Part shown: positions 2,893 to 17,693 of the stretch, one piece after another | How the letters are laid out: every line of letters starts with the position of its first letter | Numbering within the stretch: the stretch's first letter is position 1 | DNA from: Calothrix anomala FACHB-343 | GTDB lineage: Bacteria; Cyanobacteriota; Cyanobacteriia; Cyanobacteriales; Nostocaceae | Reading direction: 5' to 3' | DNA length: 63,975 nucleotides | Assembly (NCBI RefSeq): GCF_014696435.1 | Contig: NZ_JACJQG010000056.1 | Location: forward strand, 1 to 63,975 | Position numbers and translations under genes: made by a program | Notes under the pieces: generated by a model | The model's input: the letters and a program-made list of their open reading frames with translations, nothing else | Databases searched by the model: none | What the model was told of the DNA's origin: nothing

Positions 2893-3077
2893 TAAAGTAG
2901 ACTCAAGATTTTGCAAAGAAATTTAGTCATCTTGAGATGACTTTCACTATGAGCAAGGAACTTCAGTTCCTTGCGGGATAAAGCAATGAGAAAGACTATA
3001 TTTAGCAACGCCCAAAATTTTAAATGAGCATTTCTATAACTTTAAGGTATGATCGCCTGTAATTCTCGCGATCGCGT

Positions 3078-3094
3078 CTTCACAAGTTCCTCAG
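3078..3094 (+). promoter_or_regulatory. Candidate operator motif, copy A (DUF2949-pfkA)
   Basis: CTTCACAAGTTCCTCAG lies 44 bp before the DUF2949 start codon. It matches the shared 17-bp pattern CYTCACAAGTTYCTCAR also found at 11484, 12677 and 17604, and with one central change at 7879 on the reverse strand. The two YTCA half-sites are 11 bp apart, as in sites bound by tandem OmpR/PhoB-type regulators. The regulator is unknown. Confidence 0.5.
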
Positions 3095-3138
3095 ATTTTT
3101 CACGTAATCTTTTTTATAGCCAAGGCAGGGTGACTACT

Positions 3139-3333
3139 ATGGATACCAAGAGACTGGCGAAATTCCTCCGTTTTTTGCACGAAGATTTAGCAATTCCGGC
3201 TGATAGTTTGCAATTAGCGTTACGCCGTGCTGATTCTAATCCTAGCTTGTTACCGATGATTCTTTGGCAATATGGGCTGGTGAGTTTGAGCCAGCTAGAT
3301 GAAATTTTTGATTGGTTAAATGCAGTGTTTTAG
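3139..3333 (+). CDS. DUF2949 family small protein
   Basis: This 64-residue cytosolic protein belongs to the cyanobacterial DUF2949 family, whose function is unknown. The ATG at 3139 is chosen because homologues, as I recall them, begin near MDTKRLAKFLRFL. The frame is open further upstream to 3049, but that part is low-complexity and contains the candidate operator. It has no membrane segment and is mostly predicted helix. The stop is 10 bp before the pfkA start, so the two genes are probably co-transcribed. A link to glycolysis is inferred only from that spacing. Confidence 0.75.
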   Translation: MDTKRLAKFLRFLHEDLAIPADSLQLALRRADSNPSLLPMILWQYGLVSLSQLDEIFDWLNAVF

Positions 3334-3343
3334 CTAATTTGCT

Positions 3344-4417
3344 ATGACTACACAAAAACGAGTAGGAATTCTTACCAGTGGCGGTGATTGTCCGGGACTG
3401 AATACGGTGATTCGCGCTGTTGTCAGTCATGCAACTCTGACTTATGGCTGGGAAGTGGTGGGAATTTCTTATGCTACGAAGGGTTTGCAAGAAAAAACTA
3501 CGGTTCCTCTGACTTTGCATGGGTTAGATTTGCGGGGAATCGATCCTTTGTTAAGTATGGGCGGAACGATTCTCGGTAGTATTAATAAGGGTGATACTCT
3601 GGCTCATGTGGATGAAATTATGGCAGGGTATCAAGCTTTAAAGCTGGATGCTTTGATAGGGATTGGTGGCGATGGCAGTTTAGGTATCCTCAGTCAATTG
3701 CAACATCAGGGAAATTGGCAGTTTATTGCGATTCCGAAGACGATTGATAATGATGTGGCGCTGACGGAACGAGTGGTAGGTTTTGATACGGCTGTCAATA
3801 CGGTGGTGGATGCTCTTAATCGTCTCACATTTACGGCGGCAAGTCACGATCGCGTGATGATTGTGGAAGTGATGGGACGCACTGCGGGACATTTGGCGCT
3901 ACATGCGGGGATTGCTGGCGGTGCGGATGTGATTTTAATCCCGGAAATTCCCTATACAATTAAGGATATTTGCGCCCATTTACAAGAATTGCGCGATCGC
4001 TGGGGACGCAGATTTGCTATTGTAGTGGTCGCGGAAGGTGCGCATATTCCGGATGATTCGCTTAATTATGCAGCTTGTAGCAAACCTTCCTGCGGAATTG
4101 GACAGTTAATTGCTGATGAATTGCGCAATTGTAGTCACGAAACTATAGATATTCGCGCTGCGGTTTTAGGACATATTCAACGGGGTGGGATTCCTTCGGC
4201 TTTGGATAGGTTGGTAGCTAGTGCTTTTGGCAAAGCTGCGGTAGATTTAATTGCTAGCGGTAAATCTGGTGAGATGGTAGCTTGGCAAAATGGCGAAGTT
4301 GTGGCTTTACCTTTGGAAGCAGTTTTAGCGAAAAGTCCGTCATTGGTAGATCCTCATAATTATCTCGTAGAAACAGCGCGATCGCTTGGGATATATGTGG
4401 GGAATTTACAGAAATAA
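3344..4417 (+). CDS. pfkA: 6-phosphofructokinase
   Basis: Phosphorylates fructose 6-phosphate to fructose 1,6-bisphosphate in glycolysis. The 357-residue length is normal. It has the nucleotide loop TSGGDCPGLN (residues 11-20), GIGGDGS (106-112) and the catalytic loop PKTIDND (131-137). At the two donor-deciding positions it has Gly111 (Gly104 in E. coli numbering), as in ATP enzymes, but Lys132 (Gly124 in E. coli), as in pyrophosphate enzymes. This mixed Gly/Lys pair occurs in a group of PFKs that includes ATP-dependent enzymes such as that of Trypanosoma, so the donor should not be assumed from sequence alone. It is likely in one operon with the DUF2949 gene, under the candidate operator at 3078. 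Confidence 0.93.
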   Translation: MTTQKRVGILTSGGDCPGLNTVIRAVVSHATLTYGWEVVGISYATKGLQEKTTVPLTLHGLDLRGIDPLLSMGGTILGSINKGDTLAHVDEIMAGYQALKLDALIGIGGDGSLGILSQLQHQGNWQFIAIPKTIDNDVALTERVVGFDTAVNTVVDALNRLTFTAASHDRVMIVEVMGRTAGHLALHAGIAGGADVILIPEIPYTIKDICAHLQELRDRWGRRFAIVVVAEGAHIPDDSLNYAACSKPSCGIGQLIADELRNCSHETIDIRAAVLGHIQRGGIPSALDRLVASAFGKAAVDLIASGKSGEMVAWQNGEVVALPLEAVLAKSPSLVDPHNYLVETARSLGIYVGNLQK

Positions 4418-4757
4418 TTTAGGACTTAATAAGGGTAAAGGAAAAATAAACCGCAGAGGACACAGAGGACGCAGAGGAATAAGAGGTTTTGTGCGTAAGT
4501 CATATGAATTAGTGATTAATAATAATTCGCTATGATGCAGTTAATATTTATTTGATGAACCGCCAAGTACGCCAAGTACGCCAAGAGAAAAGAAGCAAGT
4601 ATTCAGTGCCAGTTTACAGAGAATTGGTAGAACTAAGTAAGTAGGTGGAAATAAACATAATTATCTTACGAAACCTAGAAAATATTTAAACTTTTACCAA
4701 TGACAAATGACAAATGACAAATGACAGTCCTCGCTAGTCATCTTTAATTGCGCAGAC
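4418..4757. other. Intergenic stretch with short dispersed repeats
   Basis: No gene seen. It contains 'accgcagaggacacagagg' (4450), the 9-bp tandem 'cgccaagta' (4560-4588) and 'tgacaaatgacaaatgac' (4700). All are families repeated elsewhere in the window. It separates the convergent pfkA and the hypothetical gene on the reverse strand. Confidence 0.6.
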
Positions 4758-5231
4758 TTACTTATTGGCATATTTGAGAACTCGTTCCCATTCCCAACGC
4801 CATGCAGTTTCAACTACTAATTCTTTGCCGTTGGTGAATTTAATAAATTCTTGTCCGTTATCATAAAATACATCAGCTACTAGGCGATTTCGTAACTCGT
4901 CGCCCCACATTTTTGCAGCCGCATTCCACCACCTTTGTCCTGGAGATTGCAGCATAGGAAGTTCTAAATATTCATCACGCCAAGCTATAGGTTGCCATTG
5001 TTCTTGTAAGGCGCGAATTAAAATTGCATTGGGAAAGATTTCTCTTTGGTTTTCCTGCAACCACAGGACATATTCGATTGTGCGTCTAAAGGAATTTTCT
5101 AAGTTAGCATAACAATTTTCTAGGGCATCTTGAACTTCTTCTAAGGCAAAATTAACGCCAATTGCTACTAATGCTCTCTCGTATTGTTTAAATATTTCGT
5201 ATTCAATTGAATCTACTTCCCAAAACCACAC
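4758..5231 (-). CDS. Hypothetical protein, 157 residues
   Basis: I do not recognise a family. The protein is acidic and rich in Trp and Glu, has no signal peptide or membrane segment, and looks mostly helical (for example the ALEEVQDALENCYANLENSF stretch). It is probably cytosolic. It reads toward pfkA (convergent) and has its own upstream region with repeats. The length and steady codon use support a real gene. Confidence 0.6.
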   Translation of the reverse strand: MWFWEVDSIEYEIFKQYERALVAIGVNFALEEVQDALENCYANLENSFRRTIEYVLWLQENQREIFPNAILIRALQEQWQPIAWRDEYLELPMLQSPGQRWWNAAAKMWGDELRNRLVADVFYDNGQEFIKFTNGKELVVETAWRWEWERVLKYANK

Positions 5232-5655
5232 AATTAATTAAACTCCAAATTAATTAATTCTAATTAATTATATAGCAATACTAAATCATTTATAAATTTT
5301 CCAAACTCTCAGTTTTCCTCTTTTACTCTTGGCGTTCTTGGCGTCTTCTCTGCGAGACGCTGCGCGTTGGCGGAAGCCTCTCGCAGAGAAGGCGGTTCAT
5401 TAAAAATATTTTCGCAACTCAGCAAAGTATTCTGGGCTTTGGTGCGTTGCGCTGCGCGACAACACACCCTACGTATTTGTTCAAAAATCTTTCCCCAGGG
5501 TAGGACGCAGAGAGAAGAGAAATTATTGAGCCTTTAGGCAGAGGTTTCGATAGCTGATATTGTTTACTCTGCAATAAATAAGGTGATTTTAAGTTGCCTA
5601 AAAAGTGAATTGGCAGTTTTTGATTGCCCAGGTTATAATTAAATCGGAAATTAAC
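5232..5655. other. Intergenic stretch with repeats
   Basis: It contains TTGGCGTTCTTGGCGTC-type tandem units (5328), a palindrome around CTCTGCGAGACGC (5348-5395), and a GGTGCGTTGCGCTGCGCGAC / ACACACCCTAC repeat (5440-5470). The last 100 bp before 5656 are AT-rich and probably hold the promoter for the two genes that follow. Confidence 0.55.
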
Positions 5656-5763
5656 ATGCGATCGAATCTAGTTTTCTTTTGGGTAAGCCTATCATTTGTA
5701 TTAGTAGGCTTGATTATGCTACTTCTACAACCCTCAATCGATTTTCATGCAGCAATAAATTGA
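5656..5763 (+). CDS. Small single-pass membrane protein, 35 residues
   Basis: This short frame (ATG 5656, TGA 5761) encodes a positively charged start (MRSN), one hydrophobic helix (residues 5-25, for example FFWVSLSFVLVGLIMLLL) and a short tail. It ends 8 bp before the next gene, whose GAGGTG ribosome site overlaps its stop, which suggests translational coupling. I do not recognise the family. The composition is what a genuine small membrane protein would show, but there is no homology support. Confidence 0.45.
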   Translation: MRSNLVFFWVSLSFVLVGLIMLLLQPSIDFHAAIN

Positions 5764-5771
5764 GGTGACTT

Positions 5772-6287
5772 ATGAATTATGTTGTGGCAGTTTTACCAGA
5801 TAGAATGCAAGCGGAAGCGGCTTATTCAGCTTTAGAAAAGGAAGGCTTACCAAATAACCAAATTGATATTTTGGGAAATGGTTATAAAAGTGCTGATGAA
5901 TATGGCTTAATTCAACCAGAAAAACAAGCTATTAAAGGGGCAAAACGCCTAGTTTATTGGCTTATACCTTTAGGATTTCTCGCCGGTTATACGTTTAATT
6001 TATTAACAGAAATTGAAATATTTCCGGAATTTAATGCTTTTGGTAATCACATTATGGGTGGGCTTTTCGGCGCTATTGCTGGCGTTTTAGGGGCTTATTT
6101 TGTTGGTGGTACTGTCGGTTTAACTGAAGGTAGCGGCGATGCTCTACCTTATCGTAATCGTTTGAATGCAGGTAAATATTTGATTGTGGTTAAGGGTACG
6201 GCAGAATTAACGCGCCAAGCTACGCGCGTGTTGCGTCAATTTGAACCGGAAAATATTCAAGGTTATACAGAACCGACAGGGGCATAA
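5772..6287 (+). CDS. Hypothetical membrane protein with two Gly-rich helices
   Basis: 171 residues. The N-terminal ~50 residues (VVAVLPDRMQAEAAYSALEK) look like a small alpha/beta domain of the kind found in general-stress and DUF1269-like proteins. It is followed by two hydrophobic segments (about 60-80 and 95-115, the latter Gly-rich: GGLFGAIAGVLGAYFVGG) and a soluble C-terminal part with VVKGTAEL. It is likely a cytoplasmic-membrane protein with both ends in the cytosol. The function is unknown; it may form a pair with the small membrane protein just upstream. Confidence 0.65.
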   Translation: MNYVVAVLPDRMQAEAAYSALEKEGLPNNQIDILGNGYKSADEYGLIQPEKQAIKGAKRLVYWLIPLGFLAGYTFNLLTEIEIFPEFNAFGNHIMGGLFGAIAGVLGAYFVGGTVGLTEGSGDALPYRNRLNAGKYLIVVKGTAELTRQATRVLRQFEPENIQGYTEPTGA

Positions 6288-6319
6288 TAACAATTCAAAA
6301 TTCAAAATTCAAAATTAAG

Positions 6320-6400
6320 AAAGCCAGATGCTAGGGGCATGGCAATGCCATGCCCTCTATGCTATATTGATGTGCCGCAAATATTATTTAAATTGGGATC
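6320..6400. mobile_element. Decayed copy of the 2667 MITE
   Basis: It shares the GGGCATGGCAATGCCATGCCC core, the following 'tatattgatgtgc' block and the right end TTTAAATTGGGA with the element at 2667. The left end is degraded. Confidence 0.6.
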
Positions 6401-6475
6401 ACAAGGATTCCCAAATTTGCATCTGTTGCTGAATTTTAAAGAATTTGTATAATATCGATTCAAAAAATCAAAAAT

Positions 6476-6602
6476 TTAAATTCGCCGCTTTGCAATGTGA
6501 CGCACCCAGGCTTTGCGGAGTTCTTCTACTCCCAAAAGGATTGCCGCACAAGCGAGGACAATCAACCAATGCCAAGGTGCTAAGGAAGCGGTAGAAAATT
6601 AG
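6476..6602 (-). pseudogene. Relic: C-terminus of a P-type cation-transporting ATPase
   Basis: About 41 reverse-strand codons end at 6476 and read APWHWLIVLACAAILLG followed by VEELRKAWVRH. This is the typical last transmembrane helix and 'EE-RK' tail of P-type cation ATPases. An in-frame stop lies immediately upstream at ~6603, and the rest of the gene is gone. It is a gene fragment rather than a short gene. Confidence 0.6.
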
Positions 6603-6671
6603 AACTTTCCAAGAGAGAATTTTGAATTGTTTGTCCCCCTTCCCTTCCCTTGTCCTTTCATACATAGCGAT

Positions 6672-7079
6672 TCACGTTTTCACACTCATCACATCTTCTA
6701 TTAAACCGAAATTTTCTGCTTGCTTAAATGCTGCTTCTAAAGAAATGCCTTGCTTAGTAGAAATATACATTAAAACCATTGCGATCGCTCTTGCGGCACT
6801 ATCACAATGAATCAATGCTGGTTTAGGCATTTCAGCTATTTTTTGCAGAACTTTGAGCGCAATTTGGGGATTAATTTCTGTGCATCTTGTAGGTAAATTT
6901 GCGTAGTGCAATCCTAGCAACTGAGTATAAAGTTGCTCGCCATCTTGAAAACCTTGTTCGTCAGGCGATCGCAAGTTCAAGACAGACTTATATCCCTGTT
7001 GGGCCAAGCTTTTTAACTCGTCAGGGGCAATTTGTCCTGCGATCGCCAATTCATCGTTAATTTTTTTAATTGTATTCAT
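6672..7079 (-). CDS. DUF442 / Blh-type protein phosphatase-like protein
   Basis: 135 residues of the DUF442 (beta-lactamase-hydrolase-like, tyrosine-phosphatase fold) family. The P-loop reads HCDSAAR, which keeps the C-x4-R spacing of DUF442 (usually C-R-S-G-T-R) but replaces the Gly. The family start 'ISGQ' corresponds here to LAIAGQIAPDE. It occurs alone or fused to a sulfur dioxygenase-like domain and is tied to sulfide metabolism in some bacteria. Here it stands alone, so the role is open. It is cytosolic. Confidence 0.75.
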   Translation of the reverse strand: MNTIKKINDELAIAGQIAPDELKSLAQQGYKSVLNLRSPDEQGFQDGEQLYTQLLGLHYANLPTRCTEINPQIALKVLQKIAEMPKPALIHCDSAARAIAMVLMYISTKQGISLEAAFKQAENFGLIEDVMSVKT

Positions 7080-7118
7080 CCCTCCCTCCTCCCTGTGGTG
7101 AGCAATGAATTAAAGAAT

Positions 7119-7259
7119 TAATGTTATGTTCGATAAATAAACTGTAATTAATCAAGATATTTTACCTTGTATAAACACAATTACATCATCATTTTTCTCA
7201 CAATTACTGTTAATTAGTAAACTTGATGATGAAGTTTATTTATTAAATACATAACATTA
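7119..7259. repeat. 141-bp AT-rich inverted repeat
   Basis: The ends TAATGTTATGT...ATAAATAAAC (7119-7145) and their inverse (7234-7259) pair over about 20 bp, with further nested complementarity inside (ACATCATCATTT / CTTGATGATG). It lies between two reverse-strand genes. It could be a MITE or a transcript-end structure. Confidence 0.6.
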
Positions 7260-7281
7260 TTCTCAATTCAGCCACTAAAAT

Positions 7282-7461
7282 TTAATAATCTTTGCTTTTG
7301 ACAGCAGGATCGCCATCGTATGGTTGTAGTCCTGTGGCTGGGTAATTATCATCACTAGGGCTAAAAGCTCTAGTGGCAGCAATGGAAATAAATTGGATTA
7401 TTTGTTGAAAAAAGTCACCAATTGCTTGGATAGCTTGCCGAATTTTAGTGATGGTAGACAT
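7282..7461 (-). CDS. Small cyanobacterial protein, 59 residues
   Basis: The start at 7461 is set by an AAGGAG ribosome site 8 bp upstream. The frame is open 13 codons further, but without a good site. It has an amphipathic or hydrophobic N-terminal helix (IRQAIQAIGDFFQQIIQFI) and a polar tail with YPATGLQPYDGDP, a type of tail I associate with small conserved cyanobacterial proteins of unknown function. It follows another small gene 56 bp upstream on the same strand, so the pair may be one unit. Confidence 0.65.
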   Translation of the reverse strand: MSTITKIRQAIQAIGDFFQQIIQFISIAATRAFSPSDDNYPATGLQPYDGDPAVKSKDY

Positions 7462-7517
7462 AATATTTATCTCCTTAATCTTTGAAAAGTTTCTAGGCAA
7501 TTAGACTTAGTAAAAAA

Positions 7518-7694
7518 CTAAGCAAACATCTGATATAGGGCTATTTCAAAAGGAACAGTACGCGGTGTAAAATGTTCTGGTTTTCTACTTACACCATTCC
7601 ACCAAACAGTTCCTAGCAGGAACATGAGCAGGAGTAGTACCAAACTGATGAGGACTTCATTGGGTTGAAAATCAGAATAATGTTGGGTTTTCAT
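7518..7694 (-). CDS. Small single-pass membrane protein, 58 residues
   Basis: The start ATG 7694 follows a clear AGGAG site. The N-terminus is polar (MKTQHYSDFQPNE), then one transmembrane helix (VLISLVLLLLMFLLGTVWW, residues 14-33), then a short tail ending in YQMFA. The size and layout recall small photosystem or cytochrome-complex subunits, but I do not recognise it as one. It is probably co-transcribed with the 59-residue gene downstream. A weaker copy of the candidate operator lies 185 bp upstream (7879-7895). Confidence 0.65.
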   Translation of the reverse strand: MKTQHYSDFQPNEVLISLVLLLLMFLLGTVWWNGVSRKPEHFTPRTVPFEIALYQMFA

Positions 7695-7878
7695 AGTTAG
7701 CTCCTGCACATTCTGTAACAATTCTTTTGCAATCAGCAAACCTTTACTAACTGCCAAATTGTAATTTTTGCTGCTAGCACAGGTTAACCAACCTCATCAG
7801 CAATACAACGATGTACGATCCCTTGCGGTTTTTGGTAGTCACCTGATGTTGCCTGTAATTTCAAGTTAAGGTAAAAAT

Positions 7879-7895
7879 TTGAGGAAGTTGTGAGG
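7879..7895 (-). promoter_or_regulatory. Candidate operator motif, copy E (reverse strand)
   Basis: Read on the reverse strand it is CCTCACAACTTCCTCAA, one central change from the CCTCACAAGTTCCTCAA found at 11484 and 17604. It points toward the two small reverse-strand genes starting at 7694, but at 185 bp it is further away than the other copies. It is the weakest of the five. Confidence 0.35.
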
Positions 7896-7954
7896 GAAAA
7901 AAAGAATTAGCGAAGGGAGACCAGGCAGACAAGGGGGACAAACAATTCAAAAAT

Positions 7955-8128
7955 AAATTACTATTCTCCCGTCAGGGTAAAATGACGATTATCATCAGCC
8001 ATCGTCCCAGAGTGATTGAACGGGCAGATTGGGTAATTCTCCTAGAGAAAGGTGAACTCAAGCTTCAAGGAACAGTGAATGAGTTACGCGCACAGGATGG
8101 AGAACATCTGAGCTTTCTCATGCCATAA
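7955..8128 (+). pseudogene. Relic: C-terminus of an ABC-transporter ATP-binding domain
   Basis: The frame reads RQGKMTIIISHRPRVIERADW followed by VILLEKGELKLQG and stops at 8126. SHRPRVI is the H-loop region, and the 'RADWVILLEKGEL' block follows it in bacteriocin/toxin-type (peptidase-containing) ABC exporters. No Walker A, signature or membrane part is present, and upstream is short-repeat sequence, so this is the last ~57 codons of a lost exporter gene. Confidence 0.7.
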
Positions 8129-8789
8129 TCAAACGCTTTGTGTTATAATTTTTTCGTTATAGCTTAAGTAGATACGTAAAAAGTTCAATCATCATAGATA
8201 ATTAGGAATTAAAAATGCCAAATTATCGTGATTACTATTTGATATATTTTCTTTATCAAGAATAAAAAATCATTGAGATTCTTCGTAAATATTTTTGTTA
8301 TCAGTGGAACAAATCAGTCAATAATCTAGTCGGCATCACTAACGGCTAATTAATAGCCATAATTGTTTAGCTACAATCCATCTACCTCCATCTAACTCAA
8401 AAATCTTAGTTTTTTCGTTAGTGCTTAGACCAAATTATCTATATCCAGAAACACAAAATTTTGCGATCGCTTATAGCTAATTCCTATAGCAATCTCAAAT
8501 TATTTGTGAAATTTTAACATGTAGATTTGTTAACTGTTGACTATTGAATGTCAACAGTCAAAACTGCTATTTTTCACCACTGAACTAGGATAACTATAGT
8601 TGTGAAATAAGTTAAAGATTAGACTCTGTATAGCACTATCAAAAATGCTGAAAAAAAAGATAAAGTTCTCTAATTTTTACCTTAGCGAACATTATCTAAC
8701 TTTTGTAGGATGGGCAAGATACCTAGCTAATTATATAAGTTAAATATGAAAAATTTGCTCAAAATCTTCACTGAAGATGACGAATTATT
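8129..8789. other. 660-bp AT-rich intergenic stretch
   Basis: No gene seen. The only structure I find is a hairpin of ACTGTTGACT / ATGTCAACAGT type near 8535-8562 (an STRR derivative) and a HIP1 octamer at 8463. The 3' part presumably holds the promoter of the aldo/keto reductase gene. Confidence 0.55.
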
Positions 8790-9779
8790 ATGAAATATAG
8801 AAACTTTGGCTCTACCGACCTTGTAGTTTCGGAAATGGGAATCGGAGGGTCGCACTTTGGCTCAATGATTAATCAACAAAGTCCTCAGGAAATTATCAGA
8901 ACTTTGTCAAAGTCTCTTGATAGCGGGATTAATTTTTACGATATTGCAGATATTTATGGTCAGGGAGAAAGCGAAAGGCTGGTAGGTAAAACTTTTAAAA
9001 ATAAACGAGATCGAGTAATTTATGCCAGCAAAGCCGGATTTTGTTTATCAAATACTGGTAATATCATTGCAAAATTTAAACCTTTTCTCAAGCCAATTGT
9101 CCGTTTAGTCAAACCCATAAAACAGCCACTTTTACAAGCTAGATCTGCTCAATTAAAACAGGATTTTTCTGCTACATACCTGATCGGTGCTGTAGAAGCG
9201 AGTTTAAAAAGATTGCAGACTGATTACTTAGATATTTTTCAATTACACGAACCTCCCCTATCGGTGATTAGAGAGGGTGAGGTATTTGAGACATTAGAAA
9301 AACTCAAATATCAAGGTAAAATTCGCTACTATGGTATCGCTTGCAAAAATGTAGAAGATGCTTTAGTTTGTTTAAATTATCCTGGGTGTTCGTCGCTACA
9401 AATAGAAATTAATTTACTCAATCAAAGTGCTGTTGATAAAGTATTCCCTTTGCTCGAAAAAGATAATGTAGGGATAATTGCAAGACAAGCTTTTGCTTCC
9501 GGGAAACTGTTTAAGATAATCCAAAACCCCGAATTATTTCCGGAAGTCACTGAAGATATCAAGGTGCATCATACTGTCCAACAACTGCAAGAACTGGTTA
9601 AGCAAAAAGGAAACGAGGCGATCGCTCAAATTGCGATTCAATTTGTTTTACAATTTGCACCCGTGTCTGTAGTTGTTGTTGGTACTCGAAATCGTCAACA
9701 TTTAGCAAACAATTTAGCGGCTTTTTCTTCACCAATTCTGACTCAAGAAGAAATAGCTGCTTTGGTATTGAGATTGTAG
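8790..9779 (+). CDS. Aldo/keto reductase family oxidoreductase
   Basis: 329 residues; NADPH-dependent reduction of carbonyl compounds is the family reaction. It starts MKYRNFGSTDLVVSEMGIGG, has the catalytic Asp-Tyr block (INFYDIADIYGQGESE), and the TIM-barrel motif DYLDIFQLHEPP with its His near residue 152. The C-terminal cofactor end VVVVGTRNRQHLANN is intact. The gene ends 31 bp before a GMC oxidoreductase, so the two are likely one operon acting on a shared alcohol/aldehyde or sugar substrate. That link is an inference from spacing. An exporter relic lies upstream. Confidence 0.85.
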   Translation: MKYRNFGSTDLVVSEMGIGGSHFGSMINQQSPQEIIRTLSKSLDSGINFYDIADIYGQGESERLVGKTFKNKRDRVIYASKAGFCLSNTGNIIAKFKPFLKPIVRLVKPIKQPLLQARSAQLKQDFSATYLIGAVEASLKRLQTDYLDIFQLHEPPLSVIREGEVFETLEKLKYQGKIRYYGIACKNVEDALVCLNYPGCSSLQIEINLLNQSAVDKVFPLLEKDNVGIIARQAFASGKLFKIIQNPELFPEVTEDIKVHHTVQQLQELVKQKGNEAIAQIAIQFVLQFAPVSVVVVGTRNRQHLANNLAAFSSPILTQEEIAALVLRL

Positions 9780-9810
9780 CTAGTTCATCTCGATTGAGGT
9801 TAATCAAATA

Positions 9811-11397: not shown

Positions 11398-11483
11398 GGG
11401 TTAATGGTCATTTGTCATTTGTCATTTGGTATTTTATAGGTGCGTTAGCTACTGTGTAATGCACCTAATTTTTGAGATAAAAT

Positions 11484-11500
11484 CCTCACAAGTTCCTCAA
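11484..11500 (+). promoter_or_regulatory. Candidate operator motif, copy B (DUF6544 gene)
   Basis: CCTCACAAGTTCCTCAA, 42 bp before the start codon of the DUF6544 gene and identical to the copy at 17604. The two CCTCA half-sites are 11 bp apart. Confidence 0.5.
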
Positions 11501-11542
11501 ATTTACGGTTTAGTATGAAATTGCCTTTGTATTGGAGGCAAT

Positions 11543-12388
11543 ATGACAATTAACTATATCTTTCATTTAATTGCAGTTAGTTTGCTGGCGATACTCAGCA
11601 TTTGTATATTCATTGCGATCGCTATCCGCATCAAAGCCGATCGCGAAATTGAGCAAATTTGGCGATCGCTCTTAGTCATTTCCAGCGAAAATCGGTTTAC
11701 TGCGGATATGGTTGCAAATTTACCCGCACCAGTACAGCGTTACTTTCTCCATGCGATCGCACCAGGAACTCTCCTAGCTACTGCTGTCAGCTTAAAAATG
11801 AGCGGTATTTTTAGAATGGCACAGGATAAACCCTGGATACCGATGCAAGCTACAGAAATCATCGCTTTACTCCAAGGATTTGTCTGGAAACCAATTATCG
11901 GGAGAGGTTTATTCACATTTGCGGGTGCTGATTACTATGCAAATCAATCGGGACGAATGCGCTTTTTTCTTTGGGGGTTAATTCCCATCGTTAACGCCCA
12001 CAATGCTGATATTAATCGCTCTAGTATTGGGCGATTCGTGGCTGAATTAATTTGGTTACCTTCAGCTTTACTACCGCAAAATGGTGTAACTTGGCAAGCA
12101 ATTGATGACAATACTATCCAAGCTAATCTGAAAATGGATGGCGAACCTATCACCCTGACAATGACGATAGACGCTGCGGGTAAACTATTGAAATTATCTT
12201 TGCTACGCTGGGGAGAATACACAGAAAATGGTGACTTTGATTACATACCTTTTGGAGGAGAAATCGCCGCTGAAAAAACATTTGGTGGCTGGACAATTCC
12301 CTATCAAATGAGTGTGGGCTGGTGGTTTGATACCAATCGTTACTCTGAGTTTTTCTGTGCCACCATCGAGCAAGCTGAGTTTTGTTAA
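11543..12388 (+). CDS. DUF6544 family membrane-anchored protein
   Basis: 281 residues. One N-terminal transmembrane helix (residues 7-28) is followed by a soluble domain with the family landmarks LPAPVQRYFLHAI, ADYYANQSGRMRFFLWGLIPIV and a C-terminal YQMSVGWWFDTNRY. It matches the DUF6544/DUF6920 family, which is structurally unlike any enzyme I can name, so no activity is assigned. GGAGG lies 7 bp before the ATG. It is preceded at 42 bp by a copy of the candidate operator. Confidence 0.75.
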   Translation: MTINYIFHLIAVSLLAILSICIFIAIAIRIKADREIEQIWRSLLVISSENRFTADMVANLPAPVQRYFLHAIAPGTLLATAVSLKMSGIFRMAQDKPWIPMQATEIIALLQGFVWKPIIGRGLFTFAGADYYANQSGRMRFFLWGLIPIVNAHNADINRSSIGRFVAELIWLPSALLPQNGVTWQAIDDNTIQANLKMDGEPITLTMTIDAAGKLLKLSLLRWGEYTENGDFDYIPFGGEIAAEKTFGGWTIPYQMSVGWWFDTNRYSEFFCATIEQAEFC

Positions 12389-12676
12389 GCTCATCCCACC
12401 CCTAGAAGGGGCGGGATTTCGCGTCAGTAGTCAGTTGTTTTCTTTACCACTGGCCACTGACCAAGAACGCGGCGGGGGGGAGCAACCTCGCTACCCCTTG
12501 AAGGCACAGGCTTTCCGCCGCCTTTGGTGAATTAAAGTTTCGCAATCGTTTCTTAATTTCACAACTATTAAAATTAAATTATAAAGTTTAAATTAGATTA
12601 TTTCCGACTAAAATTAAGCTTTTTGTCCGTTAAATCAACGATTTGAATAAATTTACGAAAATTAATCACTTTTCGT

Positions 12677-12693
12677 CTTCACAAGTTTCTCAA
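12677..12693 (+). promoter_or_regulatory. Candidate operator motif, copy C (hoxU)
   Basis: CTTCACAAGTTTCTCAA, 68 bp before the hoxU start at 12762. It differs from copies B and D in two positions. A TATAAATAAAG stretch lies 10 bp downstream and could be a -10 region. Confidence 0.45.
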
Positions 12694-12761
12694 AGTTTTA
12701 GTTTATAAATAAAGAGGGTATTCCAGAAGCTAAAGACGAGTTCAGATTAAGGTTGGAAGCC

Positions 12762-13073
12762 ATGTCTGTCAAAACTCTAATAATTAATGACCAACTCATT
12801 AGCGCTAGGGAAGAGGAAACTATTCTTGAAGCGGTAACAGAGGCGGGTATTAACATACATACCCTGTGTCATTTAAACGGAGTATCAGATGTTGGCGCTT
12901 GTCGTCTTTGCTTAGTAGAAATTGGTGGCACTAATAAACTTCTACCTGCTTGTGTGACTAAAGTAGGAGAAGGAATTGAAATAAGAACCGATAGCGATCG
13001 CTTGCAAAAATATCGGCGGACAATTGTCGAAATGCTATTTGCAGAAGACAAGGTTCAACCGTCGGTGAAATGA
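12762..13073 (+). pseudogene. hoxU: hoxU, truncated: only the N-terminal [2Fe-2S] domain
   Basis: HoxU is the diaphorase-linker subunit of the NAD(P)-reducing bidirectional [NiFe] hydrogenase and is normally about 235-240 residues. Here only 103 codons remain. The ferredoxin-like domain with its four ligands (C-x11-C-x2-C-x12-C, in TLCHLNG...GACRLCL...PACV) is intact, but right after RTIVEMLFAE the family's next Cys-rich 4Fe-4S block is missing, and a few unrelated codons lead to a stop. No C-terminal part is found before hoxY. A deletion of roughly 400 bp is the simplest reading. ATG 12762 is preferred to the TTG three codons earlier. Confidence 0.8.
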
Positions 13074-13278
13074 AACACGATCGCTAAAAACTTGATTTTC
13101 TCGTCAATGCGCGCGAGAAAAAGCAATGAAATTTTTAGAGACGGGAGATAGTTGACTGTTGACTGTTGACTGTGGCTATTAAGCTTGTCAAAGTGTTGAC
13201 GCTTAAAAACTGACAATCATAAAGACGTGATTAATCGCGTCTAATAACTGACAACTGACAACTAACAAATGAGGAATT

Positions 13279-13827
13279 ATGATGTCTCGTTTGAAATTAG
13301 CAACGGTGTGGCTAGGTGGGTGTTCTGGCTGTCACATGTCTTTTCTCGATTTAGATGAATGGCTGAGTAATTTAGCACAGCAAGTAGATATAGTTTACAC
13401 TCCCTTAGCTGATATTAAAGAATATCCCCAAGGGGTAGATGTGGTATTAGTTGAAGGTGCGATCGCTAACGAAGAACATATAAAAATAGTACGCATGGTA
13501 AGAGAGCGATCGCAAATTTTAGTTTCCTTTGGTGACTGTGCTGTTACAGGTAATGTTACTGCATTACGTAATCCTTTAGGTAATGCTGAATCTGTACTGC
13601 AACGTTGCTATATTGACGCTGCTGATATCTACGATAAAATTCCCCAAGCACCAGGTATTGTCCCACGATTATTAAATCGAGTCCAGCCAGTGCATCAAGT
13701 CGTACCAGTTGATATTTATTTACTCGGTTGTCCGCCTTCAGCAATGCGAATTCGTGCTGTATTAGAACCAATGTTAACAGGTAAAAAACCGCAATTAAAA
13801 GGGCGATATTTTCTTAAATTTGGGTAA
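13279..13827 (+). CDS. hoxY: Bidirectional [NiFe] hydrogenase small subunit HoxY
   Basis: HoxY carries the proximal iron-sulfur cluster next to the NiFe site of HoxH. The 182-residue length is full. The cluster cysteines are present: WLGGCSGCHMS (residues 11-21), SFGDCAVTGN and LLGCPPSAMR. A GAGG site lies 5-8 bp before the ATG. It is the only intact-looking gene of the locus: hoxU upstream is truncated and hoxH downstream is a relic, so HoxY cannot form a normal hydrogenase unless the missing subunits are encoded elsewhere. It may be drifting or may have a residual role. Confidence 0.88.
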   Translation: MMSRLKLATVWLGGCSGCHMSFLDLDEWLSNLAQQVDIVYTPLADIKEYPQGVDVVLVEGAIANEEHIKIVRMVRERSQILVSFGDCAVTGNVTALRNPLGNAESVLQRCYIDAADIYDKIPQAPGIVPRLLNRVQPVHQVVPVDIYLLGCPPSAMRIRAVLEPMLTGKKPQLKGRYFLKFG

Positions 13828-13938
13828 TTTAGTAATAGTCATTTGTCATGTATCAGGGATGCAATTAATCTGAAGAATTTGTGTTAGTTTTTGGCTGTTA
13901 TTTTTGGATTTTGAAATAGAAATATTTAATCAATAAAT

Positions 13939-14070
13939 ATGGCATAAAACATTATTGACACTGTGACGCGGATTGAATGACATGCCAAAATCTCGATTTA
14001 TTTGGATGATAATTGGCAAGTGAGCGATGCGCGGTTTCATGTAAGTGAATTTCGCGGATTTAAGGATTAG
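13939..14070 (+). pseudogene. hoxH: Relic of hoxH (NiFe-hydrogenase large subunit), N-terminal fragment
   Basis: The 44 codons from ATG 13939 read TVTRIE-stop-HAKISIYLDD, then SDARFHVSEFRGF, then a stop at 14068. This matches the start of HoxH (family pattern VTRIEGHAKI...DARFHV.EFRGFE). It has a stop at codon 3, a stop where the invariant Gly of the RIEG motif should be (GGA to TGA fits), and a terminal stop. The rest of the ~480-residue gene, including both NiFe-ligand Cys pairs, is absent. It lies 111 bp after hoxY, in the order expected for hoxUYH. Confidence 0.82.
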
Positions 14071-14349
14071 CGCTGAAATTAAGTTTATAATTGCCTACAA
14101 GCCTTAATTTTAAAGTTAATCTTGATAGTTGATTAAAATTTCAGCACAACACATACTGAGAAAATAAATTTATTGAGATAGTTTATATTATATTTTTATA
14201 ATAATAGGACTTACGCAAAATCATGAAAAAACGAACCGCGAAGTCGCAAAGAACACGAAGTAAAGAGGGTTTGGGAGAGTTATCGCATAAGCCCTAAATA
14301 AAAAAGATAAAGCTATTTGTCCTTAACCGATAAAGTCAAAAATGTTTCT
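14071..14349. other. Short intergenic region with inverted repeat
   Basis: GCTGAAATT at 14078 is matched by AATTTCAGC near 14143, giving a loose 65-bp stem-loop. A dispersed repeat 'ggacttacgcaaaa' (14208) and 'ccgcgaagtcgcaaagaaca' follow. No gene is seen. Confidence 0.5.
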
Positions 14350-14553
14350 ATGACTATCAAAGAAATCCTGCTCCAAGAAATTGAATCATCTTCCGAATCG
14401 CTTCTAGAACAAATTCTTGATTTTCTCCGTTTTTTAAAAAACAAGCAATTAGCAGTTAAAGAAAATACACAAACTCCACAAATTAATCTGGAAACAGCAA
14501 GTTCCAATACCTTAAATCAACCAGAAGCAGCATTAGCAGATAGTTCTCAATAG
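14350..14553 (+). CDS. Small DUF2281-like protein, possible antitoxin
   Basis: 67 residues from ATG 14350 (a TTG start at 14317 is possible but less likely). The N-terminus MTIKEILLQEIESSSESLLEQ continues into ILDFLRFLK, the pattern of cyanobacterial DUF2281-type small proteins that often sit next to VapC/PIN or other toxins. The tail is polar and low-complexity. No toxin gene follows; the next reading frame is broken by a repeat. It may be an orphan antitoxin. Confidence 0.5.
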   Translation: MTIKEILLQEIESSSESLLEQILDFLRFLKNKQLAVKENTQTPQINLETASSNTLNQPEAALADSSQ

Positions 14554-14581
14554 CGGACATATAGCCGATCCATGATCGCTG

Positions 14582-14841
14582 TTAGCCCTGACACAAATTC
14601 TTTACGGTAATTGTCCAACCGCTTGGTGGGTGATTGTCCCCGGAGAAAATTTTGCCATAGGCGATCGCTTCTCAGCAACTGTACAACCAGGAATTGCGAT
14701 GCCTACGGCAACCCCTGCGGGGAACGCGCTGGAGAAAATCGCCCAAATTATCAGCCTTCAGCCATAACATCAGCTGTTAATAGCAACCAATTGACAATTT
14801 TACGCATTAAAGCGCAATGGCGATTTTCGCCCAACCCATAA
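14582..14841 (+). pseudogene. Possible frameshifted gene with a repeat insertion
   Basis: A frame without a start codon runs from 14582 and reads LTQILYGNCPTAWWVIVPGE then NFAIGDRFSATVQ, plausible protein sequence with a secreted look. It then runs through a GC-rich dispersed repeat (gcctacggcaacccctgcgg, 14701-14735) and stops at 14765. An adjacent frame continues with NSNQLTILRIKAQWRFSPNP to 14841. I do not recognise the family. The repeat and the frame change suggest a broken gene. Confidence 0.35.
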
Positions 14842-14959
14842 AAAAATCTAAAAATCTTGGACGATCAAAGAGTTGATTTTATATACTGAGATTTGGGAAA
14901 GTACAAGTAATATACGATACTTGTACTTTGTGCTATAGTAACTTAATGAGTATCAACCA

Positions 14960-15820
14960 ATGACTTCTTCAGAAATTCCCAATCCTAACGATAAGGCAGT
15001 CTATTCTAACCCGGAAACTCTGGCCTCTTCAATTAGTCCAAAAAACTTATATCCCTTCAAAGTAGTTGAGTATTTTTTACTCACTTCCTTAGTTGGTTCG
15101 AGTATCGTGTTTCTGTTTTTTCGCGATAATCAACAAGCTGTAATTATTGGAGTAATCGCACTAACTGTTGCAATTTTTTTCTACTTAATCAACAAAGAAG
15201 TACTGCAAGCTTCGCAACAAGCTGTCAAACAGTCTGATATCAATAAAAGAGCCGAACTTTACAGCTATCAACTAGCAAATGATAGTTCATGGTATGCAAA
15301 TACAATCACACCAGCTAGACAAAAGGCTTTACAATATTGCCAAGATTTGATTGACGATTACAAGCGGACGCGGAATCTGGCGAGAAATCTGTATTACGTT
15401 TTGCAAATTTCCACCGTAATTTTATCTGGCGTCACACCAATCTTAGTTTTGGTAGACAAATTAGAAACTGGACAACCTTGGTTAAAGTGGTTACCTGTGA
15501 TTTGTCCCGCGATCGCATCCATCGTTGCTAGTATTGTCACATCTTTTCCTTTTCAAAAAAATTGGGTAGCAGCAAACACAGCTGTAGAGTTATTAGAGGC
15601 TGAACAAGAAAAGTTTATTTTGGGAATTACTCCGCTTTATCGTTACAGTAATTCCGCTACTGAAGCAGAACAGTTGCAAACAGCTAACCAAATCATCGAA
15701 AATTTTGTTGTGCAAGTAAATAATATTCATTTGCAGCAATTACAACAAGCCAGCGAACAATCCTCAGATAAAAAAGAAGCTCCCCCAGCCAATGAACAAA
15801 ATCAAGAAGCTAAAAATTAG
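14960..15820 (+). CDS. DUF4231 domain-containing membrane protein
   Basis: 286 residues. Two transmembrane pairs lie at about 35-75 (FLLTSLVGSSIVFLFF, VIIGVIALTVAIFFYLI) and 145-205 (VLQISTVILSGVTPILVLV, WLPVICPAIASIVASIVTSF). Between and after them are soluble helices (ARQKALQYCQDLIDDYKR; WVAANTAVELLEAEQEKF), the DUF4231 pattern (SLATT-like). The C-terminal 40 residues are Gln/Glu-rich and probably disordered. DUF4231/SLATT proteins are often associated with conflict or nucleotide-signal systems as pore-forming effectors. No partner enzyme is visible here, so that role is only a possibility. Confidence 0.75.
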   Translation: MTSSEIPNPNDKAVYSNPETLASSISPKNLYPFKVVEYFLLTSLVGSSIVFLFFRDNQQAVIIGVIALTVAIFFYLINKEVLQASQQAVKQSDINKRAELYSYQLANDSSWYANTITPARQKALQYCQDLIDDYKRTRNLARNLYYVLQISTVILSGVTPILVLVDKLETGQPWLKWLPVICPAIASIVASIVTSFPFQKNWVAANTAVELLEAEQEKFILGITPLYRYSNSATEAEQLQTANQIIENFVVQVNNIHLQQLQQASEQSSDKKEAPPANEQNQEAKN

Positions 15821-16290
15821 GCAAAGCGAGCTATAGCAGTTCCCAATCGGGTGAACTACATTTTCAAAGCTAATAACCTTGTGTAAAAAGATTTGAGTGT
15901 AGCTCACTAGCTTAGGAAAAGCTATAAATTAATCGGCTATTACTCTATTCTGCTTTTAAGTTGCACAATCTATCATGAGCGCTGTTGGCTGTTAACCGTT
16001 GACAGTCAACAGTTAACAGCCCCGGTTTCTCTAGTCAATCGGGGTTTGGAACTGTAACTTAATTTGTGGACAAATCTACCCATCACTACCTATTTTTGGG
16101 CAGCTTTTTGCCATTCACACTCGAAAATATCGATCCAAGCGCGCAGCCTGTTCATCTGTTGAAAGTTAAGAGTCTTGCTGTTTGGAGTGGGGACATGAAT
16201 CAATATGTTGAGCAGTTATAAATTTATCACCCAAGCATTTTGACATGAGTTATAATACTCATTGAAAAGCAATTTGAAAGGTCGAATCAA
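15821..16290. other. Intergenic region with two hairpins and a transposon left end
   Basis: A 17-bp stem with one mismatch (GGCTGTTAACC...CAGTTAACAGCC, 15987-16021) is followed by a CCCCG/CGGGG hairpin (16020-16044), together a plausible transcript end for the DUF4231 gene. A reverse-strand relic (16090-16215) and the hairpin ATGAGT-tataat-ACTCAT (16245-16262) at the left flank of tnpB follow. Confidence 0.55.
16090..16215 (-). pseudogene. Unrecognised C-terminal relic next to the transposon
   Basis: 42 reverse-strand codons end at 16090 and read HVPTPNSKTLNFQQMNRLRA then WIDIFECEWQKAAQK, which looks like real protein. An in-frame stop lies just upstream, 30 bp before the tnpB left-end hairpin. 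It may be the tail of a gene broken by the transposon. I do not recognise it. Confidence 0.3.
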
Positions 16291-17570
16291 ATGCAGTTAG
16301 TCGAGAGACATATAATTAGCAGACAGCATAAATTTTGGCTTGAATGTGATTATTTAGCATTGCAATCCAAGCATCTTTACAACTGTGCTAATTATGTGCA
16401 GCGGCAATATTTCTTTGATAGCCAGAAGTATTACAACTCAAATGATATTTATCATCAAACCAAGAATCTAGATGCCTATCGATATCTGCCTACTAAAATC
16501 AGTAAACAGATTGTCAGGAGAGTTGCTGTAGCTTGGTCATGTTGGTTAGCAGCATTAAAAGATTGGTCAAAGCATCCTGATAAGTATCTAGGACAACCAA
16601 AAATGCCGAGATATAAACATAAAGAACGCGGCAGAAATGTGGTGATATATCCTCCAGATGCCATATCAAAACCAGCTTGGACTAAAGGAATAATTAAGCT
16701 TTCTCAAACGAATATAGAGTTAAAAACTCAAGCTAAAAATGTTTTGGAGGTACGAATTGTTCCCAAGCTAGAACACTATGTAATTGAAATTGTTTACACT
16801 CTGGCATTACCTGCTAAAACAGATGGCAAATACATTGCTGGTGTAGACCTGGGATTAAACAATTTAATCGCTATAACATCCAATCATCCCGGAATAAAAC
16901 CGCTGTTGATTAATGGTAGACCGTTAAAAAGTATAAACCAGTTTTTCAATAAAAGAGTAAGTAAAGCACAATCAATCGCCGCTAACAGACAAATCAAACA
17001 ACTAAACAGCAAACGTGACAGAAGGATTGATAACTACCTGCATACTAGTAGCCGTCGGGTGATTGATTGGTGTCAATTAAATGAGATTGGTCAATTAATC
17101 ATCGGTAAGAACCTAGGATGGAAGCAAGATATCAATATTGGTAAAAAAAATAATCAAAACTTTACCAAAATTCCTCATGCCAAACTGATTAGTTTGCTGA
17201 CCTACAAAGCCCAATTAGCAGGTATTGAAGTGATTTTGACTGAGGAAAGTTATACGAGTAAAGCTAGTGCTTTAGATGGTGATAAATTGCCGACTTTCAA
17301 CAAAAAATCAGATATCAAACCTGTCTTCAGTGGTCAGCGTGTAAAACGCGGTTTGTATAAAAGTTCCACTGGAAGAATCATCAATGCTGATACTAATGGC
17401 AGCTTAAATATAGTTCGCAAAGTAATCCCAAACTTTATGGATGGGATAGTGGGATTGCCGTTTATCCCTGTAGTCTTAGGACTTTGGACTAAAATTACCA
17501 ACGTAAATGTCTAGTATTGTCTACTATTGGGTAGCTTTGTCTAGATTTCTATGAGCGGTTAGATTTTGAG
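16245..17570 (+). mobile_element. IS200/IS605-type, tnpB-only transposon (IS1341-like)
   Basis: The element has one gene, tnpB, and no tnpA within the flanks, so it is not self-mobile. The left flank carries a small perfect hairpin (16245-16262), as single-strand transposons do. The right end is not certain; I place it within the ~60 bp after the tnpB stop, where the guide (omega) RNA of active TnpB systems also ends. Confidence 0.6.
16291..17514 (+). CDS. tnpB: TnpB-family RNA-guided nuclease, Zn-ribbon-less subtype
   Basis: 407 residues of the OrfB/TnpB family, the ancestors of Cas12. Family members use a guide RNA made from the transposon right end to cut DNA. The RuvC triad is present: Asp186 (GVDLGLNN), Glu319 (TEESYTSKAS) and Asp367 (NADTNGSLN). 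The Cys4 zinc ribbon normally found between the second and third catalytic residues is absent. In its place is ASALDGDKLPTF followed by FSGQRVKRGLYKS. This Cys-less form is a recognisable subtype in cyanobacteria. The N-terminal half contains the usual helical bundle and the RYKHKERGRN region. It reads from its own weak site after the hairpin. Likely intact as an enzyme. Confidence 0.85.
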   Translation: MQLVERHIISRQHKFWLECDYLALQSKHLYNCANYVQRQYFFDSQKYYNSNDIYHQTKNLDAYRYLPTKISKQIVRRVAVAWSCWLAALKDWSKHPDKYLGQPKMPRYKHKERGRNVVIYPPDAISKPAWTKGIIKLSQTNIELKTQAKNVLEVRIVPKLEHYVIEIVYTLALPAKTDGKYIAGVDLGLNNLIAITSNHPGIKPLLINGRPLKSINQFFNKRVSKAQSIAANRQIKQLNSKRDRRIDNYLHTSSRRVIDWCQLNEIGQLIIGKNLGWKQDINIGKKNNQNFTKIPHAKLISLLTYKAQLAGIEVILTEESYTSKASALDGDKLPTFNKKSDIKPVFSGQRVKRGLYKSSTGRIINADTNGSLNIVRKVIPNFMDGIVGLPFIPVVLGLWTKITNVNV

Positions 17571-17693
17571 TAATTTTTTGCCATCAGCAAAAAAGTTACA
17601 TTTCCTCACAAGTTCCTCAAGAATCTTTTCTAACCTCATATTGTCTCCAGAGAGTCCAAAGAGACGCTATCCAAATTAACGAGGTTTAGCGAT
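17515..17693. other. tnpB 3' flank and leader of the acyl-CoA synthetase gene
   Basis: The first ~60 bp could hold the transposon right end and the end of a guide RNA. The candidate operator copy D is at 17604-17620. The GAGG ribosome site before the next gene is at 17680. Confidence 0.5.
17604..17620 (+). promoter_or_regulatory. Candidate operator motif, copy D (acyl-CoA synthetase)
   Basis: CCTCACAAGTTCCTCAA, identical over 17 bp to copy B at 11484, lies 73 bp before the start of the ADP-forming acyl-CoA synthetase gene, in the same orientation relative to the gene as copies A-C. Confidence 0.5.

Follow-up and report, generated by a model that had tools for sequence, protein, structure and literature searches.

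A short promoter signal appears to switch on the genes of fermentation and hydrogen metabolism as a set in many filamentous cyanobacteria. It was noticed in positions 1-63,975 of the Calothrix anomala FACHB-343 contig NZ_JACJQG010000056.1, a stretch of 63,975 nucleotides referred to below as the window, where a preliminary description had listed five copies of a 17-bp motif and proposed a regulon. The observation was confirmed, and it is larger than first noted. The explanation that we favour as a whole, and consider probable, is that the copies belong to class-II type promoters, that a large hybrid response regulator is their likely regulator and that the genes behind them form a fermentation and low-oxygen programme. 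This provides a named box and a named candidate regulator gene for much of a filamentous cyanobacterial family, named strains included, and it bears on the question of how hydrogenase and fermentation genes come to be expressed in cyanobacteria when oxygen is low. With the pattern alone, a large part of the anaerobic genes could be recognised in a genome sequence, and a compact promoter is on offer for anaerobic expression and hydrogen work.

Promoter box and its placement

All five copies were recovered at the places described, four as exact matches on the plus strand (3078, 11484, 12677 and 17604) and one with a single mismatch on the minus strand (7879). The distance to the start codon, given earlier as 42-73 bp, was 44 bp from the end of the box for DUF2949-pfkA, 42 bp for DUF6544, 68 bp for hoxU and 73 bp for the acyl-CoA synthetase gene. 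Five or more matches with no more than three mismatches arose in 1 of 100 shuffles of the window. Ten nucleotides past each 17-mer in the window lies a TA-led hexamer resembling a -10 element, at one constant distance. The boxes, hexamers and adjoining genes are as follows (ORF, open reading frame).

3078..3094, plus strand: regulator box CTTCACAAGTTCCTCAG, exact match
3105..3110, plus strand: -10-like hexamer TAATCT at the fixed spacing
3139..3333, plus strand: DUF2949 small protein (Pfam PF11165)
3344..4417, plus strand: pfkA, 6-phosphofructokinase (Pfam PF00365)
7879..7895, minus strand: regulator box CCTCACAACTTCCTCAA, one mismatch
7863..7868, minus strand: -10-like hexamer TAACTT at the fixed spacing
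7518..7757, minus strand: 79-aa ORF behind the minus-strand box, by eye a short membrane protein
7282..7500, minus strand: 72-aa ORF, by eye resembling the cluster 7 small proteins that follow sites elsewhere
11484..11500, plus strand: regulator box CCTCACAAGTTCCTCAA, exact match
11511..11516, plus strand: -10-like hexamer TAGTAT
11543..12388, plus strand: DUF6544/DUF6920 protein (Pfam PF20181 and PF21900)
12677..12693, plus strand: regulator box CTTCACAAGTTTCTCAA, exact match
12704..12709, plus strand: -10-like hexamer TATAAA
17604..17620, plus strand: regulator box CCTCACAAGTTCCTCAA, second copy, exact match
17631..17636, plus strand: -10-like hexamer TAACCT
17694..20474, plus strand: ADP-forming acyl-CoA synthetase with ATP-grasp and GNAT domains (Pfam), 71% to a same-genus relative

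A longer ORF (3049-3333) starts upstream of the 3078 box, and the DUF2949 domain is the part of it that follows the box.

A logo of 193 distinct sites revealed two 11-bp direct repeats, TCCTCAcAAgT and TCCTCAAATTT, arranged head to tail and followed by about six looser, T-rich bases and a TAnnnT -10 box; these sites had been picked with a pattern covering most of the bases shown, and the new information lies in the flanking parts of the repeats. No TTGACA-like -35 consensus was visible in the logo. The exact 15-mer, searched for without any -10 requirement, occurred 14 times in the genome of the strain, twice inside ORFs; in 12 of the 12 copies outside ORFs, TA stood at the same offset, and each of the other offsets from 16 to 30 had it in at most three. 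Both a direct-repeat period of about 11 bp and a fixed place before a -10 box of the sigma-70 type, as in boxes of OmpR/PhoB-type regulators, were therefore present. In E. coli, the class-II Pho box of PhoB is an 11-bp direct repeat with TCA cores lying in place of the -35 element. The present box is alike in its 11-bp repeat, in the TCA cores that replace the -35 element and in its position about 10 bp before the -10 box, whereas the Pho repeat is CTGTCA with phosphate targets and here the repeat is TCCTCA, the targets are fermentative and the regulator is usually fused to a kinase. Judged from the sequences, the 17-mer is part of a promoter in which the tandem repeat would stand in for the -35 element in the manner of a Pho box. 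Because the box takes the place of the -35 element, activation is favoured over repression. NtcA and CRP sites were considered and rejected, as the consensus of the 193 sites is a direct repeat and not the palindrome GTA-N8-TAC or TGTGA-N6-TCACA.

The motif might also serve an alternative sigma factor as its -35 region and need no activator, which its position and its constant distance to the -10 box would allow. However, the conservation covers two full 11-bp repeats and reaches beyond a -35 hexamer, the -10 box is an ordinary TAnnnT, and the motif co-localises with an OmpR-type regulator, as described below; we consider this reading very improbable. The preliminary description had further suggested that the copies lie in the 5' untranslated region and pair with the ribosome site, in view of the CCTC in the box. 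This suggestion was given up and can be regarded as hardly credible: the distance from the box to the start codon varies widely (median 94 nt; 5th-95th percentile, about 20-360 nt), whereas that to the -10 box is constant, and with a -10 box downstream the RNA is not expected to include the box.

The promoter box was then sought in genomes by mismatch patterns, with the reversed pattern as control. In the genome of the strain (9.24 Mb), the 17-mer with a free centre base gave 8 matches (5 in the window) against 1 for the reversed pattern, and the box together with the -10 element, at no more than one mismatch, gave 14 sites (5 in the window) against 0. In 60 genomes of the family there were 414 sites against 3 control matches, and 54 of the 60 carried at least one. 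These counts support the proposed regulon. Throughout the phylum, 43 of 291 genomes had a site, with six control matches. Six genomes from named strains all carried sites, 5 to 20 each; Chlorogloeopsis fritschii PCC 6912 had 18, and the site positions of Fischerella thermalis PCC 7521 were the same as those of G008 in the family set.

The 193 distinct sites came from chosen regions (clusters of sites, neighbourhoods of the regulator, the window and nine loci of the strain's own genome) together with 80 regions taken by position before their genes were known, and sites with identical surrounding bases were counted once. Fourteen of them lay inside ORFs of at least 100 aa, which make up 75.8% of the DNA (P=5.5e-92); the motif is not as frequent inside genes as outside them, a possibility that had been named as one that would speak against a regulon. 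When these 14 were left out, the downstream neighbour was co-directional with the motif at 168 of 179 sites, and the upstream neighbour was divergent at 103. Conservation in the leaders of orthologous genes, also raised earlier, held in part. A search for PfkA in 30 family genomes returned 26 loci in 22 genomes, and a site was present in the leaders of 8 of 15 genes of the window type (at least 69% identity, one of the 15 only partly aligned) against 0 of 11 paralogues (51-53%; Fisher P=0.007), under a rule that allowed one mismatch within 450 bp upstream, G or C at the eighth base and a free last T of the -10 box.

Genes following the box

Three of the 193 sites had no downstream ORF, which left 190 targets. 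Universal stress proteins (USPs) formed the largest group, with 27 of the 190, and a small cysteine-rich protein that belongs to no Pfam family was the second most frequent (19). Pyruvate:ferredoxin oxidoreductase (PFOR) followed 9 sites and the activase of pyruvate formate-lyase (PFL) 8, and there were 6 genes for PfkA and 4 for DUF2949 before pfkA. The Hox proteins accounted for 10 (HoxW 5, HoxE 3 and HoxU 2); phosphoribosyltransferases, phosphatase-like proteins and a small protein of unknown function for 5 each; Hsp20, radical-SAM proteins and ComFB-like proteins for 4 each; PflB and phosphoenolpyruvate (PEP) synthase for 3 each; and DUF6544 for 2. The names PFOR, PflB, PflA, AdhE, PEP synthase, HoxW, HoxE, Hsp20 and USP were assigned by sequence reading, and others by Pfam. 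The low-oxygen or dark role guessed in the preliminary description stands insofar as many of the targets, not all, are anaerobic or fermentative genes; the signal itself is read from these targets.

One 20-kb stretch of G015 carries PFOR, psbA, hoxEF-DUF6544-hoxUY-CBS-hoxH and pfkA under such promoters. In G012 and G019, one site leads into pflA, adhE and the acyl-CoA synthetase gene and another into pflB, the pflB site of G012 satisfying only a looser rule. At 30 loci of the named-strain genomes, most sites precede similar genes, and the site of L379 stands before none that could be called.

Some of these genes deserve a separate description. The cysteine-rich protein has about 85 aa and the pattern CPCC...WFCRRCW (for example in L009, L115:9914-10165, L380 and L385); in the genome of C. 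anomala, its gene is divergent from that of PEP synthase, with a site before both. The psbA gene under the motif in G015 (L104:6510-7580) encodes, by eye, a divergent D1 like rogue or sentinel D1. This D1 presumably has alanine and leucine at the D1' positions and altered manganese ligands E189, E333 and D342. A second psbA copy, in L186, seems broken. In G024, a protoglobin gene (Pfam PF11563; L240:5000) follows a site and is a possible oxygen-linked target. In the genome of C. anomala, two radical-SAM-like genes have a site before them, and divergent from that site runs a gene (L116:2783-9628) for a 2281-aa protein whose start looks like a receiver by eye.

Candidate regulator and proposed signal

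A large protein with the start of an OmpR-type response regulator was noticed in the site clusters of G025, G028 and G030. The Pfam scan, which covered four regulator proteins, revealed the order REC-Trans_reg_C-Hpt-REC in these three, followed by PAS or GAF and, in two of the three, by HisKA and HATPase_c. The relative in C. anomala, a protein of 1803 aa on contig C134, has the same N-terminus, three PAS domains, one GAF domain, a kinase and further receivers. The identity of the winged helix to that of C. anomala had a median of 84% (66-100%) in 43 regulators against 63% (55-70%) in paralogues. The sequence [E/D]AVRTHIKGLR, presumed to be the recognition helix, hardly varies among the regulators; three borderline cases carry RTQ. 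A cysteine of the winged helix (FSCGMILEH), invariant in 15 aligned regulators and missing in a number of paralogues, is possibly a redox switch. A second protein of the strain could share the box; it is encoded in an 831-aa frame at C122:19130, 19 kb from a site, and its winged helix is 67% identical.

Many of the regulator genes lie close to sites. Among 40 further regulator genes, one per genome, 25 had a site within 5 kb and 21 within 2 kb; together with the first three, the count within 5 kb was 28 of 43, against 0 of 20 RcaC-like paralogues (Fisher P=2.6e-7). For 17 of the 28 genes near a site, the site points away from the gene and the two are divergent, and in G023 a site reads into the regulator gene itself. 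In a second set of 80 named loci, from which two without a clear regulator ORF were dropped, 43 of 78 had a site within 5 kb, as did 28 of the 57 loci new to the analysis, and the reversed pattern had no match in the 80; some regulator loci were cut by contig ends, and nearby sites can have been missed there.

The presence of the regulator also largely tracks that of the motif, with exceptions. In the family, 50 of the 60 genomes had the regulator, with a mean of 8.2 sites, none with zero and two with one, and the 10 genomes without it had no site (six) or one site (four). For two or more sites, the Fisher P value was 8.8e-10, which overstates independence because the genomes are related; G009 was scored as having the regulator on the strength of a 1075-aa frame whose winged helix is 77% identical. 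A protein search of 80 more of the 291 genomes of the phylum found regulator and sites together in G064, G081, G096, G108, G160, G170, G231, G270, G272, G317 and G328.

From the geometry of the promoter, which would be of the class-II type, each box would serve as an activator site: a phosphorylated winged-helix protein of the OmpR/PhoB type would bind the two repeats as a dimer in head-to-tail order and bring in RNA polymerase; the tandem-binding regulator suggested earlier thus gains support from the 11-bp repeat, the fixed -10 spacing and the co-localised OmpR-type gene. Co-localisation and co-occurrence point to the hybrid as the most likely binder, that is, to a large RcaC-like protein of the order REC-winged helix-Hpt-REC, usually continued by PAS/GAF and a histidine kinase, which would hold a complete phosphorelay in a single chain. 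In C. anomala, this would be the protein of 1803 aa encoded on contig C134. The regulon would comprise PFOR, PFL and its activase, AdhE, PfkA, PEP synthase, Hox and its protease, the acyl-CoA synthetase, USPs and Hsp20, and its targets suggest that the signal is low oxygen, darkness or an over-reduced redox state.

Several observations weigh against this explanation. First, in the strain itself no site was found near the regulator gene over the 14 kb read of contig C134, which on one side runs on for only 374 bp beyond the gene. Second, 7 of the 15 window-type pfkA leaders had no site within 450 bp, and 44 of the 190 downstream ORFs were singletons, many of them short or doubtful. Third, the kinase part is not universal, because 8 of 43 regulator ORFs were shorter than 900 aa and may be without a kinase. 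Fourth, the rule for presence of the regulator was fixed after the data had been seen, and G007, G044 and G051 were scored as present on winged helices of only 66-71% identity; counting them as absent would weaken the co-occurrence because they hold 16, 5 and 11 sites, respectively. Fifth, sites without a full hybrid occurred in G117 (14 sites), G119 (5) and G168 (2) and singly in G194, G290, G040, G043, G059 and G017, with scattered matches also in G067, G128, G147, G158, G213 and G294. Sixth, G268 had a 63% winged helix in a 1110-aa frame and no sites, and G301, G198, G110, G102 and G200 had plain regulators of 227-276 aa with winged helices of 67-71% and no sites; likeness of the winged helix alone is therefore no predictor of sites.

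Some of these exceptions would fit a box that is real and is read by another OmpR-type regulator, either a plain REC-winged-helix protein of 230 aa or a kinase-less RcaC-like paralogue, with the hybrid merely a target or neighbour. G117, G119 and G168 do have plain or RcaC-like regulators with winged helices of 62-66%, a 620-aa RcaC-like protein of kinase-less size lies within the site cluster of G117, and the genome of C. anomala encodes ten winged helices of this type (E<=1e-22). However, sites lay within 5 kb of 25 of the 40 hybrids but of none of the 20 RcaC-like paralogues, and they were lacking both in the five genomes with plain regulators of 67-71% and in G027 and G112 (plain, 60%). 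We consider another binder unlikely and retain the hybrid as the candidate.

Regarding the signal, the sensor domains recognised by Pfam were PAS and GAF only, a further point against a low-oxygen programme. In addition, RNA-seq of C. fritschii PCC 6912 found that an anoxic atmosphere changed only six genes (PMC10830646); as far as these are named in the available part of that paper they are not among the targets here, and hox, hydrogenase, nifJ and universal stress are absent from its main text as available, and the study lends the low-oxygen signal no support. Its authors suggested for their other strain that evolved O2 had prevented low-oxygen induction (PMC10830646, available part). The regulon and the regulator might be right and the signal be another one, such as general dark, redox, desiccation or dormancy stress. 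The two most frequent targets, the USPs (27 of 190) and the cysteine-rich protein (19), together with Hsp20 (4), ComFB-like proteins (4) and the PAS and GAF sensor part, agree with such a signal, but oxygen-sensitive or anaerobic enzymes are prominent (PFOR 9, PFL activase 8, PflB 3 and HoxW/HoxE/HoxU 10), and we regard it as possible rather than probable. At its boldest, the fermentation and low-oxygen reading would see in the hybrid the master activator that has been missing for life at low oxygen in heterocyst-forming cyanobacteria: a soluble phosphorelay in one chain that responds to redox state or oxygen and, by means of a single, strictly built promoter, turns on the pyruvate-fermentation and hydrogen route along with a D1 variant seemingly without manganese ligands, so that water splitting by photosystem II is off during fermentation. 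We put this forward tentatively and would not call it likely.

Among known systems, RcaC of chromatic acclimation in Fremyella shares the N-terminal order REC-winged helix-Hpt-REC with the four scanned proteins. Its L box, TTGCACA-N4-TTGCACA, is likewise a direct repeat with an 11-bp period; the sequence and the targets differ. RcaC has no kinase module, whereas in the candidate PAS/GAF and a histidine kinase usually follow (three of the four scanned have HisKA and HATPase_c). ArcA and FNR of E. coli similarly let one regulator coordinate fermentation genes, but families, boxes and sensors differ. ChlR of Synechocystis is a low-oxygen activator, as proposed here, but a one-component protein of the MarR type with the targets chlAII, ho2, hemN and psbA1; the same source, in its available part, places hox and flv at low oxygen under an unidentified system (PMC4500134). 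The pair cyAbrB2/SigE of Synechocystis acts on hox and nifJ, key enzymes here as well, which are induced in the microoxic dark, but consists of a nucleoid protein and a sigma factor; the available part of the report names LexA and Rre34 as possible aids and describes no such box or hybrid regulator (PMC11368403). The available part of PMC13421787 names ChlR, RpaA and cyAbrB proteins and no activator of the hybrid type, and the word RcaC is absent from it. No published description of the box or the regulator was found among the literature matches listed, a scope that left out most subscription papers.

Hox remnants in Calothrix anomala

Of the targets named in the preliminary description, DUF2949, PfkA, DUF6544 and the synthetase were recognised by Pfam, but hoxU proved to be a relic and was ruled out as an intact target in this strain. 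About 100 internal residues are gone from it and the frame changes. The hox features of the window are as follows.

12762..13126, plus strand: hoxU relic, residues 1-95 and 202-235 in different frames (same-genus comparison; 2Fe-2S domain by Pfam)
13279..13827, plus strand: hoxY, apparently complete, 77% to the same-genus HoxY
13951..14064, plus strand: hoxH relic, residues 6-43 of 482
14552..14755, plus strand: hoxW relic, residues 82-141 of 145

With proteins of a same-genus genome as queries, HoxE and HoxF had no match in the window. An intact HoxH was not found in the genome of the strain at E<=1e-5, where only the relic of the window and a distant match of 35% appeared. Because HoxU, HoxH and HoxW are fragmentary and HoxH matches only these two, the strain seems to have lost Hox and to have retained the promoters before DUF6544 and hoxU; the Hox part of the proposed regulon would have decayed here, with its promoters persisting. 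By eye, a TnpB-like transposase gene at 16291-17514 of the window separates the hox relics from the acyl-CoA synthetase gene, and it may mark the event that broke the hox operon.

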